Positions 3,295 to 17,560 of a stretch of DNA of 64,000 nucleotides are shown in pieces (position 1 is the stretch's first letter; every line of letters starts with the position of its first letter). The position numbers and the translations under genes were made by a program. The stretch lies in assembly GCA_001767525.1 (NCBI GenBank), contig MELF01000033.1:15641-79640 (forward strand), given 5' to 3'. Under the pieces are notes generated by a model, which was given only the letters and a program-made list of their open reading frames with translations, searched no databases and was not told where the DNA came from. Origin of the DNA: Acidobacteria bacterium RIFCSPLOWO2_12_FULL_68_19 (GTDB lineage Bacteria > Acidobacteriota > Vicinamibacteria > Vicinamibacterales > UBA2999).

Positions 3295-4605
3295 TCACGC
3301 CAGCTCCTGGCCGCGGGTTTCTCTCGCGAAGATCAGCGTCACCGGCCCCAGCAGGTACACGAGGCTCAGGGCGCTAATCGCGTATGCGAACGAGCCGGTG
3401 TAGAGCACCATGAGACCGGTGAGGAACGGACCCGCGGCCGAGACGACGCGGCCGATATTGAAGCAGAAGCCGGCGCCGGTCGTCCGCAGCGGCGTGGGAA
3501 AGAGCTCCGGCAGATAGATCGGGAAGGCCGCATAGATGCCGAGGGTGAAGAAGCCGAGAAGCGGGAGCAGGACGAGCATCTGGCCGATCGTCCAGGGCCC
3601 GAGGAAGATGAGCGGCGCCGCGAACGCGCCCCCGACGAAGAACACCAGGAACGCCGGCTTGCGTCCGAAGCGATCCGCCAGCGCCGCCACACCGGCGTAG
3701 CCGGGCAGCGAGCCGAGCGTCAGGATCATGATCGCGTAGCTCACGTAGGAGCTGGCGCTCACGCCGGCGGCGAGCGACGGATCGTCGGCGATCCGGTTCT
3801 GGATGAGCGCCGGCACCCACGCCGACACGCCCCAGAAGCCGAAGTTCGCGACGCTCGCCAGCATCGAGCCGACGATCGTGTCGCGCCGCAGATCGCGGCC
3901 GAAAATCTGCGCGAGGGTGAACCGTCGCACCTTCGCACCGTCGAACGCACCGTCGCACCCTCGCACCGTCGCACCTTCGCACCGTTCCTCCAGCCACCGC
4001 TCCGACTCCCGCATCGACTTCCGGATCATGAAGACGAGCACGGCGGGAAGCGCGCCGACCAGGAAGACGAGCCGCCAGCTGTAGCCGCCCACCATCAGAT
4101 AGATGAACGCCGCCGCGAAGTACCCCATGCCCGCGGACGTCTGGAGGATGGCCGCGCCTTTCGCCCGCGCCCGCTCCGGCCACGTCTCGGCCAGCAGCGC
4201 CGCGCCGGCCGCCCATTCCCCGCCAACGCCCAGACCGGTGAGGAACCGATAGGCGCCGAGCTCCCACCATGAGCCCGCCGTCGCCGCCAGCCCGGTGCAC
4301 AGCGCGTAGACGAGGATGGTGAGCATCAGCGTGGGCTTCCGTCCGACGTAGTCGGCGACCACGCCGAACACGATGCCGCCCAGGGCCCAGCCGACGAGGA
4401 ACACCGAGAAGATCAGGCCGCCGTACCAGCCGATGTTCTGGACGGTCCCCGCCCGGCCGAGCAGATCGCCGAGCGCCGGTCCCATCACCATGGTGTAGAG
4501 CGTGGAGTCCATCAGGTCGAACAGGAAGCCGAGCCACGTCATCAGCAGCACCGTCCACTGGTACCGCTCGATCTGCCTCCACCACGGCTGCGCCGCATTT
4601 GACAT
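3295..4605 (-). CDS. MFS transporter (metabolite:H+ symporter type)
   Basis: The 436-residue integral membrane protein has about twelve hydrophobic segments and the MFS signature in loop 2-3 (GVVADYVGRKPTLM), repeated in the second half (ALADRFGRKPAFLV). The N-terminus 'DLMDSTLYTMV' resembles aromatic-acid/metabolite symporters. The central loop contains an odd Arg/Cys-rich stretch (EERCEGATVRGCDGAFDGAKVRRF, about residues 207-230) encoded exactly by a short-period DNA repeat at 3921-3985, so repeat DNA has expanded the cytoplasmic loop without breaking the frame. It follows no close partner on its strand except the downstream amidohydrolase, whose substrate or product it may carry. Its start lies only 32 bases from the divergent TAXI gene. 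Confidence 0.88.
   Translation of the reverse strand: MSNAAQPWWRQIERYQWTVLLMTWLGFLFDLMDSTLYTMVMGPALGDLLGRAGTVQNIGWYGGLIFSVFLVGWALGGIVFGVVADYVGRKPTLMLTILVYALCTGLAATAGSWWELGAYRFLTGLGVGGEWAAGAALLAETWPERARAKGAAILQTSAGMGYFAAAFIYLMVGGYSWRLVFLVGALPAVLVFMIRKSMRESERWLEERCEGATVRGCDGAFDGAKVRRFTLAQIFGRDLRRDTIVGSMLASVANFGFWGVSAWVPALIQNRIADDPSLAAGVSASSYVSYAIMILTLGSLPGYAGVAALADRFGRKPAFLVFFVGGAFAAPLIFLGPWTIGQMLVLLPLLGFFTLGIYAAFPIYLPELFPTPLRTTGAGFCFNIGRVVSAAGPFLTGLMVLYTGSFAYAISALSLVYLLGPVTLIFARETRGQELA
3921..3985. repeat. Short-period (TCGCACC)n degenerate repeat inside a gene
   Basis: About eight imperfect copies of the unit CGCACCGT / CGCACCTT stand in tandem with a period of about eight bases. The array is in frame within the MFS gene, where it encodes an Arg/Cys/Gly-rich loop. 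It is one of several low-complexity families in the window (compare 11649-11720, 24088-24167 and 37578-37638). Confidence 0.8.
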
Positions 4606-4637: not shown

Positions 4638-5633
4638 ATGTCGAGCCCCCTTCGCGCGTTCCCGCTCCTCTGTGCCGCGCTCGGCCTGCTCGCCGCCGCC
4701 GCGTGCGGCCGCGACAGCGGATCGACCCGCGTCATCAACATCGTCACCGCGCCGCCCGGCGGCAGTTGGTACGTGATGGGCGGCGCGCTCGCCAGCGTGA
4801 TCAACGACGCCGTGCCGGGCGTTCAGGCCGTGGCGGAGGTCAGCGGCGGTGCGGAGGAAAACGTCCGCCTGGTTGGCACCGGACAGTCGAACCTCGGGTT
4901 CGTGATCAGCAAGACGGCGCTGCAAGGGTATCAGGGGCTGGAACCGTTCGCCCAGCCGTTCTCGAACCTGCGGATGCTGCTCGGCAACCTCGACGTCGGA
5001 CAGATCCACGTGGTCGTGCTCGACGGATCGCCGCTCGACGACGTCTGCGATCTGCGGGAGCGGCGGGTCGGGGTCGGCCCGTCCGGCCACGGCAGCCTCG
5101 CCAACCTCCGCGAAATCTTCTCGGCGGGCTGCGGCTTCACCTTCGACGACATCACGCCGGTGTACCTGCCGTACGACCAGGCGCTCGGGGCGCTCGGCGA
5201 CGGCCGGCTCGACGCGGCCGTGCTGTACGTCTCGCCGCCGATTCCGGCGATCAGCGAGTTCGGGGCGACCCACCGCTTCCGCCTGCTGCCGCTGACCGAG
5301 GCCGCGCGCGACGGCGTGGTGGCGAAGTACCGCTACTACTTGAAGACGGCGATTCCCGCCGACGCCTACTCCGGCCTCGGCGCGGACGTGCCGGTCGTCG
5401 GCACGTCGAACGGCCTGATGACGAGCGCCGACGTGCCGGAGGATCTCGTCTACGGGATCACCAAAGCCACTTTCGAGAACATCGACCGCTTCCGCAGCAG
5501 CTACCCCACGATTGCCGACTTCTCGCTGGAGGTGGCGCCGAAGGACGGACTCATCCCCTACCACGAGGGGGCGATTCGCTACTACCGCGAGCGGGGCGTC
5601 TGGCCCGAGAGGGGGTCAGACCCCGGTGATTGA
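4638..5633 (+). CDS. TAXI-family TRAP solute-binding lipoprotein
   Basis: The mature start is chosen at ATG 4638 because it gives a clean lipoprotein signal (LGLLAAAAC), whereas an upstream ATG at 4599 would overlap the divergent MFS start and add hydrophilic residues before the signal. The 331-residue product contains the TAXI pattern 'IVTAPPGGSWYVMGGALASVIN' for the first strand-helix, 'AVAEVSGGAEENVRLV' and 'GPSGHGSLANLREI'. TAXI proteins bind organic acids such as glutamate, 2-oxoglutarate or aromatic acids and hand them to a fused DctQM permease; that permease is the next gene, overlapping by 8 bases. A perfect palindrome overlaps its last codons. Confidence 0.9.
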   Translation: MSSPLRAFPLLCAALGLLAAAACGRDSGSTRVINIVTAPPGGSWYVMGGALASVINDAVPGVQAVAEVSGGAEENVRLVGTGQSNLGFVISKTALQGYQGLEPFAQPFSNLRMLLGNLDVGQIHVVVLDGSPLDDVCDLRERRVGVGPSGHGSLANLREIFSAGCGFTFDDITPVYLPYDQALGALGDGRLDAAVLYVSPPIPAISEFGATHRFRLLPLTEAARDGVVAKYRYYLKTAIPADAYSGLGADVPVVGTSNGLMTSADVPEDLVYGITKATFENIDRFRSSYPTIADFSLEVAPKDGLIPYHEGAIRYYRERGVWPERGSDPGD

Positions 5634-5649
5634 CCGGGGTCTGACCCCC
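5611..5649. repeat. Perfect GGGGTCAGACCCC-type palindrome at a gene junction
   Basis: Two perfect 17-base arms (GGGGGTCAGACCCCGGT and its complement) flank a 5-base loop. The hairpin covers the last codons and stop of the TAXI gene (TGA at 5631) and the likely GTG start (5626) of the permease. The same GGGGGTCAGACCCC core recurs at 16628-16740. Confidence 0.92.
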
Positions 5650-7365
5650 GTCCGGATCCTCCTGATTGCGACGTCGGCGTTCGCGCTCTATGCGAACGCC
5701 ACGACGCTCCTCGCGCCGGAATACAACCGGATGGTCCACTGGGGCCTGATGGGCGCCGTGGCGCTGCTGACATACGGGCGGAGCCGCACCAGTCCCGGTG
5801 CACTTCGGGCCGTCGATCTGGGACTCGCGGCCCTCGTCGCCGCCTCCACCGTCTTTCTCATCGTCGACTACCCCGACTACATCCAGCGCACGGGCATCGT
5901 CACGGCGGCCGAGCTCGCTTTCGGCGTCCTGATGATTGCGCTCGTGCTCGAAGCCACGCGCCGGGTCGTCGGCTGGTTCCTCGTGCTGATGGTGGTGGCG
6001 GCGCTCGCCTACGCCCTGGCCGGCCAGCACCTGCCGGGGCTCTTCGCGCACCGCGGGTACGACCTGTCGCGGCTGGTCGGAGCGCTCTATCTCGGCAGCA
6101 ACGGCATCTACGGGCTGCCGATGGAGATCTCGGCAACCTTCGTGATCATGTTCGTGATCTTCGGCGCCCTGCTGACACAGTCGGGCGGCGACCGCTGGTT
6201 CATGGATCTCGCCCTGGCGCTGACCGGCCGGCTGCGCGGCGGCGCAGCGATGAGCGCGGTGACGTCGAGCGCGCTCATGGGGATGATCTCCGGCTCGCCG
6301 GTCGCCTGCGTGGTGACGGTCGGAAACTTCACCGTGCCGCTGATGACCCGGACCGGCTTCGGCCGCGAGTTCGCCGGCGCCACCGTCGCGGTCGCCTCCA
6401 CGGCCTCGATGTTCACGCCGCCGCTCATGGGCGCCGGGGCGTTCCTCATCGCGGAGTACCTGCAGGTCCCGTACAGCGAGGTCGCCAAGGCCGCCATCCT
6501 GCCGGCGGCGCTCTTCTACCTCGCGCTCATCATCACCGTGTACCTGTGGGCCGTTGAGCGAGGCATCGGGCCGGACACCGAGCAGCCGCTGCCGGAGGTG
6601 GGCCGCACGCTCGCGCGCTACGGCCACATGATGCCGCCCGTCGTGGCGCTGGTCGGGCTGATCTACACCGGGCGGAGCTTGATGCAGGCGGCCTTCTGGT
6701 CGATCGTGCTGACGTTCGCGTGCTCGCTCCTCCGCTCGCACACACGGGTCGGCCTCGCGCGACTGATCGGCACGCTCGAGGAAGGGGCCCGGGGCGTGAT
6801 CGCCATCGCGGTCGCCTGCGCCGCCGCCGGCATCATCGTCGGCGTCATCAATCTCACCGGGATCGGATTCACGCTGTCGGCGACGCTCACCGGCCTGGCA
6901 CAAGGGCAGCCGCTGCTGCTGCTCACGCTCATCATGGCGGCGGCGCTCCTGCTCGGGATGGCGATTCCGCCCACCGCGGTCTATCTGGTGCTGGCCGGCC
7001 TGAGCGTGCCGGCGATGACGACCGCCGGCTTCGAGCCGATGGCGGCGCACTTCTTCATCTTCTTCTTCAGCTCGATGGGGGCGGTCACGCCGCCGGTGGC
7101 GCTGGCGGCCTACGCGGCGGCCGCCCTCTCGGGCGCCGACGTCACTCGGACCGGCTGGCTCGCATTCCGCCTGGGGATCACGGGTTACATCATCCCGTTC
7201 CTCTGCATGTATTACAGCGGCCTGCTCCTGGCCGGCGGACCGGCGAACGTCTTGTGGGAGCTGACGGTCGCGGTCGCGCTCATCGTCGCCGTGTCGGTGG
7301 CCGTGCACCTGGTCAACCGGCTCACCGACCGGACGCCTCACGGCGAACCGCTGTCGCAGCCGTGA
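5626..7365 (+). CDS. TRAP transporter fused permease (DctQ-DctM, 4TM/12TM)
   Basis: The 579-residue protein is hydrophobic throughout. The first ~150 residues form a four-helix small-permease module and the rest the large ion-transporter-superfamily module, with the conserved 'SSALMGMISGSPVACVVTVG', 'TASMFTPPLMGAGAFLIAEYL', 'MAIPPTAVYLVL' and 'SSMGAVTPPVALAAYAAAALSGAD' segments. Its length and layout match fused DctQM permeases that work with TAXI receptors, powered by a Na+ or H+ gradient. I chose GTG 5626, which overlaps the TAXI stop; the upstream extension of this frame is only the shadow of the TAXI gene. Because the start lies in one arm of a perfect hairpin, translation initiation may be limited by that structure. 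Its stop abuts the convergent gene at 7366 with no spacer. Confidence 0.88.
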   Translation: MIDRGLTPVRILLIATSAFALYANATTLLAPEYNRMVHWGLMGAVALLTYGRSRTSPGALRAVDLGLAALVAASTVFLIVDYPDYIQRTGIVTAAELAFGVLMIALVLEATRRVVGWFLVLMVVAALAYALAGQHLPGLFAHRGYDLSRLVGALYLGSNGIYGLPMEISATFVIMFVIFGALLTQSGGDRWFMDLALALTGRLRGGAAMSAVTSSALMGMISGSPVACVVTVGNFTVPLMTRTGFGREFAGATVAVASTASMFTPPLMGAGAFLIAEYLQVPYSEVAKAAILPAALFYLALIITVYLWAVERGIGPDTEQPLPEVGRTLARYGHMMPPVVALVGLIYTGRSLMQAAFWSIVLTFACSLLRSHTRVGLARLIGTLEEGARGVIAIAVACAAAGIIVGVINLTGIGFTLSATLTGLAQGQPLLLLTLIMAAALLLGMAIPPTAVYLVLAGLSVPAMTTAGFEPMAAHFFIFFFSSMGAVTPPVALAAYAAAALSGADVTRTGWLAFRLGITGYIIPFLCMYYSGLLLAGGPANVLWELTVAVALIVAVSVAVHLVNRLTDRTPHGEPLSQP

Positions 7366-14601: not shown

Positions 14602-14955
14602 TCAGGCCAGCTTCTCCTCGGCCGGCATCGTGTCGGTCACCAGATCGCGGATGACCGTCCGCTTCGGGAGCGGCGCCACCCTCGCCCCGGCGGCGGACAG
14701 CCGCGCCGTGCACATGTACTCGACGCGGCCGTCGACGAGCGCCATGCACGTGTGGCAGGCGTTGGCGTTGATGCAACTGTAGCGAATGGCCAGGCTCGAG
14801 TCGGCATGCGTGCGGATCCAGCGCAACGCGTCGAGCACCGACATCCCCTCTTCGAACGGCACCTCGTAGGTCTGGAACCGTCCCTCGTCCGGGCCGGTGC
14901 CGCGCCACACCGTCAGGGCAGCCACGCCGTGGGCGCCGGCCACGCGGTTGCTCAC
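14602..14955 (-). CDS. Short [2Fe-2S] protein, SdhB/FrdB N-terminal domain only
   Basis: The 117-residue protein matches the ferredoxin half of succinate dehydrogenase/fumarate reductase iron-sulfur subunits: 'YEVPFEEGMSVLDALRWIRTHADSSLAIRYSC' followed by a CX5CX2C cluster loop (C-INANA-C-HT-C) and a fourth Cys in 'VEYMCTARL'. It stops where the C-terminal [4Fe-4S]/[3Fe-4S] domain should begin, so it carries a single [2Fe-2S] cluster. Its GTG start overlaps the flavoprotein stop (GTGA) and its own stop is two bases before ubiD. It probably delivers electrons to, or takes them from, the adjacent flavoprotein. Confidence 0.85.
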   Translation of the reverse strand: MSNRVAGAHGVAALTVWRGTGPDEGRFQTYEVPFEEGMSVLDALRWIRTHADSSLAIRYSCINANACHTCMALVDGRVEYMCTARLSAAGARVAPLPKRTVIRDLVTDTMPAEEKLA

Positions 14956-16712
14956 GCCGAACGGACCCCCGACCGTACGACCGGCGTCCAGCGGCTCGTC
15001 AGCGCGTCGCCGGAGAGCGACAGGCGCTGATTCTTCTCGAAGGTCGGCGACGGCTGCGGCGCGTCGAGGCGCTGGTGGGCGCCGCGGCTCTCGGTGCGGT
15101 TCGTCGCCGAGACGACCACCGCCTCCGCGCTCCGGAGCATCGCCTTCAGCTCGTACCAGTCCTGCAGGTCGAGGTTGAAGACGTCACCCTCGGCCAGCGC
15201 GAGGTCCGGAAGACCGCGGCGGAACCGGTGAATCGCGTCGAGCGCGCGCGCCAGCCCCTCCCCCGTCCGGAACGGCCCCGCGCGCTCCCACATCACGTCC
15301 TGCAGCTCGGTCTGGACGACGCCCGGCGCCGGACCCTCCCCCGTTCGCGCGCGGAGCCCCGCGAGTTCCGCCCGCGCCCGTTCCGCGTACGCCGGCAGCC
15401 AGCCTGGATCCGCTCCGCCGGCGGCCTCCGCGGCGACGTGTCCCGCCCGTTCGCCGAAGACGAGCGCCTCGCTGATGGCGTTGCCCGACAGGCGATTGGC
15501 GCCGCCGGGGCCGCCCACCGCCTCGCCCGCCGCGAACAGCCCGGCCACGCGCGTCTCGAGCCGCTCGTCCACCGCAACGCCCCCCATGTGATAGTGCGCC
15601 GTCGGCGCCACCTCCACCGGCATGCGCGTCAGATCGATGCCGTTTCTGAGCAGCCGGTCGATCACCGGACCGAATGCCTGCCGGAGACGGTCCTCGGGAA
15701 TGTGGCGGAAATCGAGGTAGGCGCCGCCGTGCGGAGAACCGCGCCCCGCCTCCGCCTCCTTGAGAATCGCGTAGGAGGCGAGATCCCGCGGCGCCGTGTA
15801 GCGCCCCTCGTCTTCGCCCCCGTAGCGGTTGATGAACTCCTCGAAGCTCCCGTTCAGCAGCCGGCCGCCGAGCTTGTAGCGGAACGGGTCCCACATGATC
15901 GGGTCCATGCCGACGAGCCTCGGCGCCAGGTGGGCGATCGGAAAGAACTGCACGAACTCCATGTCGACGAGCTCGGCGCCGGCTTCGAGCGCCAGCCAGT
16001 ACGCCTCGCCGCCCATGTTGGCCGACGCGCTGTTGCGCCGGAAGATCTTGGTGAGTCCCCCGGCGGCGAGAATGACCGCCCGTGCCGCGATCGTCACGAG
16101 CGATCCGGCCGACAGATCCAGCGCCACGGCGCCGCGGGCGCGTCCGCCGGCGACGCACACCTCGATGGCGGCGACGTTGCTGAGGCGGCGGATGCGGTCC
16201 GTACTTGCCACCTGGTGCCGGAGCGTGGCCGCCACGGCGGGACCGGTGCCGAGGAAGTCGATGTAGCAGCAGCGCCTGCGGCGGTGCCCCGGCGCCGTCA
16301 CCTGCTTGATGTGGCCGTGCTCGCGCGCCCACCGGGTGCCCCAGCCGTCCATTTCGAGGATGCGCTCCGGCGCGCGCTCGCAGAGCAGCGACGAGAGCGG
16401 CTCGTGGCAGATACCGCGCCCGGCCTCGAGCGTGTCCTCGAGGTGGAGCGTCCAGTGGTCCGGCTCCTCCTGGGCGATCGCCGCCGCCACCGTCATCTGC
16501 GCCATGACCGTGGCGCCGCCGCGGCCCACGAGCCCCTTGTCGAGCAGCAGCACCGAGCGCCCGTCGCGCGCCGCAGCAATCGCGGCGTACATCCCGGCGC
16601 CCCCGGCGCCCACGACGAGCACGTCGGTCGCCTGGTGGGTGGGGGTCAGACCCCGATGATGGGGCGACTCACGGTTGCCGGTTCGCTGCATGACCTTGAC
16701 TCGCCCCATCAT
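14952..16712 (-). CDS. FAD-dependent oxidoreductase, fumarate reductase/APS reductase-like flavoprotein
   Basis: The protein (586 residues from ATG 16712, 579 from ATG 16691) carries the dinucleotide fold 'DVLVVGAGGAGMYAAIAAARDGRSVLLLDKG', the covalent-FAD-type region 'GRGGATVMAQ', the 'ILAAGGLTKIFRRN' and 'YHMGGVAVDERLETRVAGLFAAGEAVGG.GGANRLSGNAISEALVFGERAG' segments, and the C-terminal helical domain with 'DWYELKAMLRSAE'. This is the SdhA/FrdA/AprA scaffold; there is no transmembrane partner nearby, so it is likely soluble. The ATG at 16712 overlaps the creatininase stop (ATGA). The first ~20 residues are encoded by one arm of a large inverted repeat, so the native N-terminus has been replaced or extended by repeat DNA. 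Confidence 0.88.
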   Translation of the reverse strand: MMGRVKVMQRTGNRESPHHRGLTPTHQATDVLVVGAGGAGMYAAIAAARDGRSVLLLDKGLVGRGGATVMAQMTVAAAIAQEEPDHWTLHLEDTLEAGRGICHEPLSSLLCERAPERILEMDGWGTRWAREHGHIKQVTAPGHRRRRCCYIDFLGTGPAVAATLRHQVASTDRIRRLSNVAAIEVCVAGGRARGAVALDLSAGSLVTIAARAVILAAGGLTKIFRRNSASANMGGEAYWLALEAGAELVDMEFVQFFPIAHLAPRLVGMDPIMWDPFRYKLGGRLLNGSFEEFINRYGGEDEGRYTAPRDLASYAILKEAEAGRGSPHGGAYLDFRHIPEDRLRQAFGPVIDRLLRNGIDLTRMPVEVAPTAHYHMGGVAVDERLETRVAGLFAAGEAVGGPGGANRLSGNAISEALVFGERAGHVAAEAAGGADPGWLPAYAERARAELAGLRARTGEGPAPGVVQTELQDVMWERAGPFRTGEGLARALDAIHRFRRGLPDLALAEGDVFNLDLQDWYELKAMLRSAEAVVVSATNRTESRGAHQRLDAPQPSPTFEKNQRLSLSGDALTSRWTPVVRSGVRSA

Positions 16713-16740
16713 CGGGGTCTGACCCCCACCCACCAGGCGA
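16628..16740. repeat. Large perfect inverted repeat with GGGGTCAGACCCC core
   Basis: Arms 16628-16667 and 16701-16740 are perfectly complementary over 40 bases and enclose a 33-base loop. Each arm contains the palindromic GGGGGTCAGACCCC core that also makes the hairpin at 5611-5649. The structure covers the last codons of the creatininase gene and the first codons of the flavoprotein gene, and it encodes ...WVGVRPR at one end and HHRGLTPTHQ at the other. Confidence 0.93.
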
Positions 16741-17560
16741 GGAACTCGACCAGCCGCTCCACCATGTAGTCGTGGTACTGCCGGCCAGTCTCGGCCGAGG
16801 CGGCCCGGTTCGACGAGAACTGCCCCGTCGGCGCGCGCTGTTTCTGCTCGCTCGAGGTCCACGGCTGGTCGATCGTGTCGCGCCCGCCGGCGCCAAACAG
16901 ATCCCGCGTCCCGAACGGACCGACCAGCCGGTCGAAATCGCACCCAGCGTCGGAGAGCCTCTCGGTCCGGATCGTGTGCGGGAACTTGTGGAGCACGTGG
17001 GAGATCTCGAGCTCGCCCGCGTGGTGCTCGTCGGCATGCTTGAGCCGGCCGGCGATGCCGCGCGCCAGGTACACCGGATCCGCCACCGCCGTGCGCACGC
17101 CGGGCAGCTCGAACTCCCGGATGTTGCGGGCGGCGCTCGTGAGCGCCGCCAGGTTCGTCCACTTGTGGCCGTTGACGAGCAGGATCCGCCTGAACCCGTG
17201 GCGCGCGAGCGACCGGACGATGTCGGAGACAACCTGCATGAGCGTCTCGGTGCGCAGCGAGACGGTGCCGGGAAAGCCCAGATGGTGACTCGAATCGCCG
17301 TACCAGACCGGCGGCGCCGCCAGCACACCCGCCCGCCGCGCGGCGTCCTCCGCCAGCGCGATGGCCACGTAGCTGTCGAGGCCGAGCGGACCCGCGGGTC
17401 CGTGCTGCTCGGTCGTGCCGAACGGCACGAGGATCGTGTCGCGCTCGCGGAGGTAGGCCGCCACCTCCTCCCACGTCAGCTCGTGCAGCCAGACGGACGG
17501 CAGCGTGCCGGAAGCCGGGAGCCGGGAGCCGGGGTCGGATCGACGGGCGTCGTCAGTCAT
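16709..17560 (-). CDS. Creatininase-family amidohydrolase
   Basis: The 283-residue protein shows the creatininase motifs in order: 'ILVPFGTTEQHGPAGPLGLDSYVA' (metal-binding Glu and His), 'DSSHHLGFPGTVSL', 'RILLVNGHKWTNLAAL' and 'DEHHAGELEISHVL'. Family members are Zn/Mn amidohydrolases acting on cyclic amides (creatinine, formamides, mycofactocin or FAPy-type steps). Its N-terminal ~18 residues are encoded by a GCCGGGA-type tandem repeat and its last seven by the large inverted repeat, so both ends have been remodelled by repeats. Overlap (ATGA) with the flavoprotein start implies coupled translation. Confidence 0.88.
   Translation of the reverse strand: MTDDARRSDPGSRLPASGTLPSVWLHELTWEEVAAYLRERDTILVPFGTTEQHGPAGPLGLDSYVAIALAEDAARRAGVLAAPPVWYGDSSHHLGFPGTVSLRTETLMQVVSDIVRSLARHGFRRILLVNGHKWTNLAALTSAARNIREFELPGVRTAVADPVYLARGIAGRLKHADEHHAGELEISHVLHKFPHTIRTERLSDAGCDFDRLVGPFGTRDLFGAGGRDTIDQPWTSSEQKQRAPTGQFSSNRAASAETGRQYHDYMVERLVEFLAWWVGVRPR

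Follow-up and report, generated by a model that had tools for sequence, protein, structure and literature searches.

The hairpin at the junction between the TAXI and TRAP permease genes is one of dozens of copies of a dispersed repeat. It is very likely a non-autonomous palindromic element of REPIN/TIR-like type, spread by a Y1 transposase, that settled at the overlap of the two genes and persists because the gene border tolerates it. The window, which is the whole 64,000-nt stretch of DNA analysed, contains this copy and a second, longer one, with the following features.

4638 to 5633, forward strand: gene of a TAXI-family TRAP solute-binding protein (TIGR02122, E 4.9e-68), with its last codons and TGA stop in the element
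5611 to 5649, forward strand: focal hairpin, a short inverted pair of the GGGGTCAGACCCC repeat (from the fold z value and the inverted-repeat scan)
5612 to 5624, forward strand: left core copy, GGGGTCAGACCCC (exact genome match, G000:C33:21252-21264)
5636 to 5648, reverse strand: right, inverted core copy (exact genome match, G000:C33:21276-21288)
5626 to 7365, forward strand: gene of a TRAP fused permease (TIGR02123, E 7.9e-163), with its probable GTG start and first codons in the element
14952 to 16712, reverse strand: FAD-binding oxidoreductase gene (gene call), with its called start in the second element
16642 to 16726, no strand assigned: second, long element copy, likewise over a stop/start junction (core match and gene calls)
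16709 to 17560, reverse strand: creatininase-family gene (gene call), with its called stop in the second element

The earlier note had described a perfect hairpin with 17-bp arms covering the TAXI stop and the TRAP start, and this geometry was reproduced. The arms, GGGGGTCAGACCCCGGT at 5611-5627 and ACCGGGGTCTGACCCCC at 5633-5649, were 100% complementary (17/17 bp) and enclosed a 5-nt loop, GATTG, at 5628-5632. This was the longest perfect inverted repeat between positions 4601 and 7400 with arms at most 60 apart, the runners-up having 10-nt arms. RNA folding of 5560-5700 yielded -82.9 kcal/mol against a mean of -61.3 kcal/mol (sd 4.14) for shuffled sequences, a z value of -5.22 that none of 200 shuffles equalled. 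The predicted RNA fold of the 39-mer hairpin by itself had an energy of -40.2 kcal/mol. The 8-nt overlap of the two genes was located within the hairpin, with the TAXI stop TGA at 5631-5633 and the putative TRAP start GTG at 5626-5628, of which the stem held two bases and the loop the third. In the permease frame, this GTG was the sole ATG, GTG or TTG between the TTG at 5512 and the ATG at 5731, so the element very probably supplies the TRAP start codon.

The core GGGGTCAGACCCC, a 13-mer palindromic around its central A, had 36 exact matches in the 4,212,118-base genome (17 forward, 19 reverse). Its reversed control had none, which excluded chance. The sequences read were the window and 25 further loci, 26 stretches in all, which held all 36 exact copies and part of the places elsewhere with one mismatch. 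An 11-mer scan of these stretches revealed 28 places, of which nine had a single core and 19 had two or three; a forward core was followed by an inverted core in 15 of the 19 multi-core places. The long copies measured about 75-85 bp, with arms that mostly extended as GGTGATGGGGCGACTC. The short copies, the focal one among them, appear to have lost the interior. The copy number, the inverted pairs and the bracketed transposase gene described below all support the dispersed element that the earlier note had offered as one of two readings. What it had named as contrary evidence, a rare core and a junction conserved in unrelated genomes, was not what we found.

A REP-type Y1 transposase had been suggested as a check on this origin, and the search of the genome gave one Y1_Tnp (PF01797) gene (G000:C5:36465-37109), with core pairs on either side. 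The repeat, usually an inverted pair of cores, was most likely spread by this Y1 (HuH/tyrosine) transposase, the gene of which it brackets. Mobilisation would proceed by single-strand transposition, as in IS200/IS605-type relatives of the enzyme. At L014:1960-1982, the repeat that brackets the transposase gene also provides its stop codon and last residues. The protein carried the NHVH and YIELNP motifs, and its score against the NCBI RAYT model NF047646 was 74.2 bits, under the curated cut-off of 80. A Pfam search at E values up to 1 returned Y1_Tnp and one match below its cut-off, and a C-terminal HTH was not detected.

We compared 71 transposase loci, comprising 30 from the focal gene and the best matches of 29 other genomes, 40 that were hand-chosen (most of them from genomes rich in cores, the rest from core-poor genomes as a contrast) and one more. 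The core was present on both sides at 12 loci, the focal one included, on one side at one locus and on neither side at 58. Identity of the core-bracketed transposases with the focal enzyme ranged from 100% down to 27%. Exact bracketing inverted repeats of at least 10 nt occurred at 48 of the 71 loci, a count made without a chance control, and many of them were G-rich and of the same style. At 11 of the 71, the longest bracketing repeat contained the strict GGGGWSAS motif. Close transposase homologues at L039, L041, L043, L044 and L045 were without the core; two of these, L041 and L043, are located at the ends of contigs. Other Y1 genes of the order, at L096 and L099, sat among GTAGTGTCCGGCTTTAGCCGGAC-like or GGGGGCCGGCTTTAGCCGGCCC repeats, and the GTAGTGTCCGGCTTTAGCCGGAC-like repeats near this pair looked like canonical GTAG-tagged REPs.

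The core was also common among relatives. It occurred in 58 of 148 relatives (59 of 149 with the focal genome), with a reversed control near zero, and reached a maximum of 87 copies in one relative. Phylum-wide, 60 of 396 genomes carried it, in a set that includes the focal genome and overlaps the 149. A transposase match was present in 25 of the 30 genomes with at least five cores versus 66 of the 119 with fewer (p 0.006, with the focal genome included and relatedness uncorrected). A strict one-to-one tie between core number and transposase was rejected, given core-rich genomes in which Y1 was not detectable and close homologues without the core. Four genomes with 9 to 16 cores (G048, G057, G058 and G115) gave no Y1_Tnp match. 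Another, G031, which is 78% complete, had 53 cores and a weak transposase match unsupported by the Pfam Y1_Tnp model. One-strand direct core arrays were noted on contigs C312 and C322 of G119, with irregular spacing in C312 and mostly 37-38-bp spacing in C322. On contig C4 of G345, a genome outside the order, nine forward cores were seen among the matches listed, within 53 kb (87918-140415).

Transposases bracketed by the same core were present in several relatives and also in a named distant lineage; in another such lineage, a transposase adjoined the core. The matches listed for a fused 25-mer of the repeat, which may omit near relatives, comprised 21 stretches from named genomes. The hosts were Marinobacter, Thermoleophilia, Elusimicrobia, Massilia, Fictibacillus, Blautia and Actinobacteria. 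The Thermoleophilia stretch (L147) had a transposase homologue between cores on both sides, and in Marinobacter (L161) a transposase homologue adjoined a core, its other side lying beyond the end of the stretch. In a Blautia MAG (L149), the fused core pair lay within AAAGGTG...CACCTTTTTCT and resembled the stem of an intrinsic terminator followed by a T run.

Gene positions were taken from a simple home-made gene caller. Among the 28 places, four were internal to a gene, nine held a stop codon, five a start codon and four both, which is the placement relative to gene ends that the earlier note had wished to see counted. The L014 transposase stop is missing from the nine stops because the caller missed the transposase gene. 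The four copies holding both codons were the focal site, the creatininase/FAD pair at 16642-16726, L011 and L024. The gene neighbours belonged to differing families at the first three, and were two ABC ATPase genes at L024. Survival at tolerant borders explains the border location in general, while target preference or later deletion may additionally be needed for the precise capture of stop and start.

A preference of insertion for tight stop/start overlaps, such as GTGA, ATGA or TGAC, would make the landing a matter of target choice and not of survival alone. Both codons were captured at 4 of 28 places, whereas in simulation this happened in 56 of 3000 insertions (Fisher p 0.002); the four among the 24 non-internal places compared with one of 848 simulations sparing gene interiors (p 2e-6). 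However, the simulation inserted the same elements cleanly, whereas native bases seem to be missing from the real sites, and the gene caller may be biased towards start codons within the GC-rich element. All four sites had a tight junction in at least one element-less relative, with GTGA in G001 (at two of them), ATGA in G014 and TGACCATG in G023. Nonetheless, at two of the four, L011 and L024, G013 had a long spacer with other palindromes, and at L016 and L028 no common tetranucleotide was visible by eye. With just four cases, we consider such a preference unlikely, but if the stop/start excess holds in larger samples, mobile palindromes would be a recurrent source of starts, stops and altered operon coupling. 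Slightly less probable still is that the repeat serves as a portable stop-start cassette, which would preferentially replace tight operon overlaps and bring its own TGA and GTG/ATG in a strong hairpin. If this were true, a mobile element would repeatedly rewire the translational coupling strength of neighbouring genes.

Clean insertion at one fixed target tetranucleotide was rejected, since no motif common to the sites was apparent by eye (L010, L016, L017, L019, L021, L022, L023, L024, L026, L028 and L033). The divergence of the junction sequences is too rapid for this comparison. L010 had no reliable alignment with relatives, and at L011 three of five relatives aligned on one side only. At L021, G001 had one core at the same place and G023 had none; G013 held a remnant-like GGGGTCTGAC at L017, and G010 a degenerate related element at L024. 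A solo core lay within a gene at L019 and L023, where the sequence of the relatives was equally long, suggesting substitution or chance instead of insertion.

The second copy in the window had a further peculiarity. Its inverted repeat ran about 14 bp further into the flanks (CGCCTGGTGGGTGG / CCACCCACCAGGCG), and, on this sequence, simple insertion is not an adequate account of the flanking inverted repeat. In the congener G001, a flank repeat of this type was present solely on the creatininase side. The flanks of a core cluster in an Actinobacteria MAG (L154, about 848-920) were likewise mutually inverted (GAACTGCTG / CAGCAGTTC).

The other reading of the earlier note was a translational gate, in which a purpose-evolved hairpin hides the TRAP start until TAXI is translated and so sets the ratio of binding protein to permease. 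The structure itself suits such a role, as the stem is very stable, two bases of the only plausible GTG are paired within it, and the gene overlap lies inside it. However, the same-genus genome G001, whose orthologous permease is 82% identical, has a junction, CGCGGTGATCCGCG, in which GTGA is common to the TAXI stop and the TRAP start, with no hairpin of the focal type and at most a 5-bp stem around the GTGA. The hairpin is thus absent from the closest relative examined, and seems to have settled at the junction by chance instead of being a conserved switch. G001 carried four cores elsewhere. The occurrence of the core at unrelated gene pairs also speaks against the gate.

We extended the comparison to 29 other TRAP loci, each from a different genome among the 68 relatives that had a match. 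The 11-mer core was present at none of the 29, and an oriented stem survey, which covered the 150 positions before the projected start and the 90 after it, revealed no stem longer than 12 bp; six loci had a stem of 8-12 bp, none of which was the core. These loci other than G001 are distant homologues (35-41% identity), so they make a weak argument. Conservation of the hairpin at orthologous junctions was not observed, in a comparison with one close orthologue. The conserved translational gate was rejected on the G001 junction and on the other TRAP loci, which had neither the core nor a comparable stem, and a gate evolved for the purpose is highly improbable. Of the two readings in the earlier note, the dispersed element therefore stood, while the gate was left without comparative support. 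An intrinsic transcription terminator or attenuator between TAXI and TRAP is extremely improbable in spite of the strong GC-rich stem, since GTCCGGATCC, the sequence after the right arm, has no T run and the TRAP gene begins within the stem.

Other palindromes were seen in relatives (L066:625; L218:1679; L176:2149 and 2213; L175:1070), with the sequences GTCCGGCTTCAGCCGGAC, GGGCCTGAAGGCCC, GGACCTGAAGGTCC and a variant. The one at L066:625, in G001, lay in the N-terminal region of TAXI. Those of L218, L176 and L175 were located at or near junctions that hold the GGGG core in the focal genome. From these sequences, the same gene borders seem to be used by different repeats.

Returning to the dispersed repeat, insertion would have occurred at the tight TAXI-TRAP stop/start overlap after the split from the nearest relative. 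We infer a gain in the focal genome and not a loss in the congener, although loss in G001 could also produce the difference, as there is a single close orthologue of the focal junction. The element would have replaced the last TAXI codons and the native TRAP start, so that its letters would now act as the TAXI stop and the TRAP start. The TAXI tails were similar in length, PERGSDPGD in the focal protein and ADGAPAAATR in G001, and the focal TRAP protein had additional residues after the first two relative to G001. The borders of the focal site were blurred, not those of a clean insertion, and the GGTGA at the loop may be native or element-derived.

In E. coli, intercistronic REPs affect mRNA decay, and REPs near stop codons affect translation. 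A local effect of the hairpin by start masking, translational coupling or mRNA stabilisation is predicted as possible. Speculatively, the hairpin could hide the TRAP GTG unless TAXI ribosomes open the stem, and it may protect the 3' end of the TAXI mRNA. Because the TAXI stop is at the loop, a ribosome terminating there would have opened the 5' arm beforehand, and it could re-initiate at the GTG that starts 5 nt before the stop. Overall, a striking hairpin at an operon junction need not be a regulator, and here the copy number and the empty site in a sister species point to its origin.

Several families of palindromic repeats invite comparison. REPINs or BIMEs are inverted pairs of GTAG-tagged REPs (Bertels and Rainey 2011, PMC3116915). 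Judged against the REP features given in the parts of PMC3733652 and PMC8266576 used here, our repeat is similar in its short dispersed palindromes, inverted pairs, bracketed transposase and position mostly outside gene interiors. It differs in the tag, since GTAG or GTGG (GT[AG]G) was found within 6 nt outside the 13-mer at none of 49 cores of the focal genome. The exact 13-bp self-complementary core or the 11-mer was not found in REP papers by a PMC text search judged by title and covering text other than figures and supplements. Among the matches listed, supplements aside, no title of a TIRYT/TIRtron or Acidobacteria RAYT paper named the repeat.

The TIRYT genes, or TIRtrons (Di Nocera et al. 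2013, PMC3733652), are Y1 transposase genes bracketed by inverted repeats, many but not all of which have GGGGWSAS. According to the portions of that paper drawn on, some of these TIRs are self-complementary, dispersed and arranged in dimers or clusters, and they are known from Acidobacteria among others. Our Y1 gene, bracketed by core pairs, agrees with this description, and GGGGTCAG fits GGGGWSAS (the motif holds for L035), whereas its abundance, with 36 core copies in the focal genome and 87 in one relative, sets our repeat apart from the TIRs as described there. Quentin et al. (2018, PMC6006769) tabulate NHVH and YIELNP, both present in our transposase, for TnpA_Y1 subclass 2.1, which they equate, with reserve, to the TIRYT genes. 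With regard to the C-terminal HTH of that subclass, as far as the source sections show, our protein displayed none in the Pfam search.

The closest known kind is therefore the TIR repeats of TIRYT / TnpA_Y1 subclass 2.1 transposases with the GGGGWSAS motif. We regard the focal repeat as a TIRYT-type self-complementary repeat of ordinary origin, with the stop/start excess as one statistic worth a larger test. In the sections of PMC6006769 drawn on, no REP-like sequences are reported near subclass 2.1 genes. In contrast, our gene sits between REP-like inverted pairs, and is a clear example of a Y1 gene of subclass-2.1 type that has a multicopy, self-complementary partner repeat.
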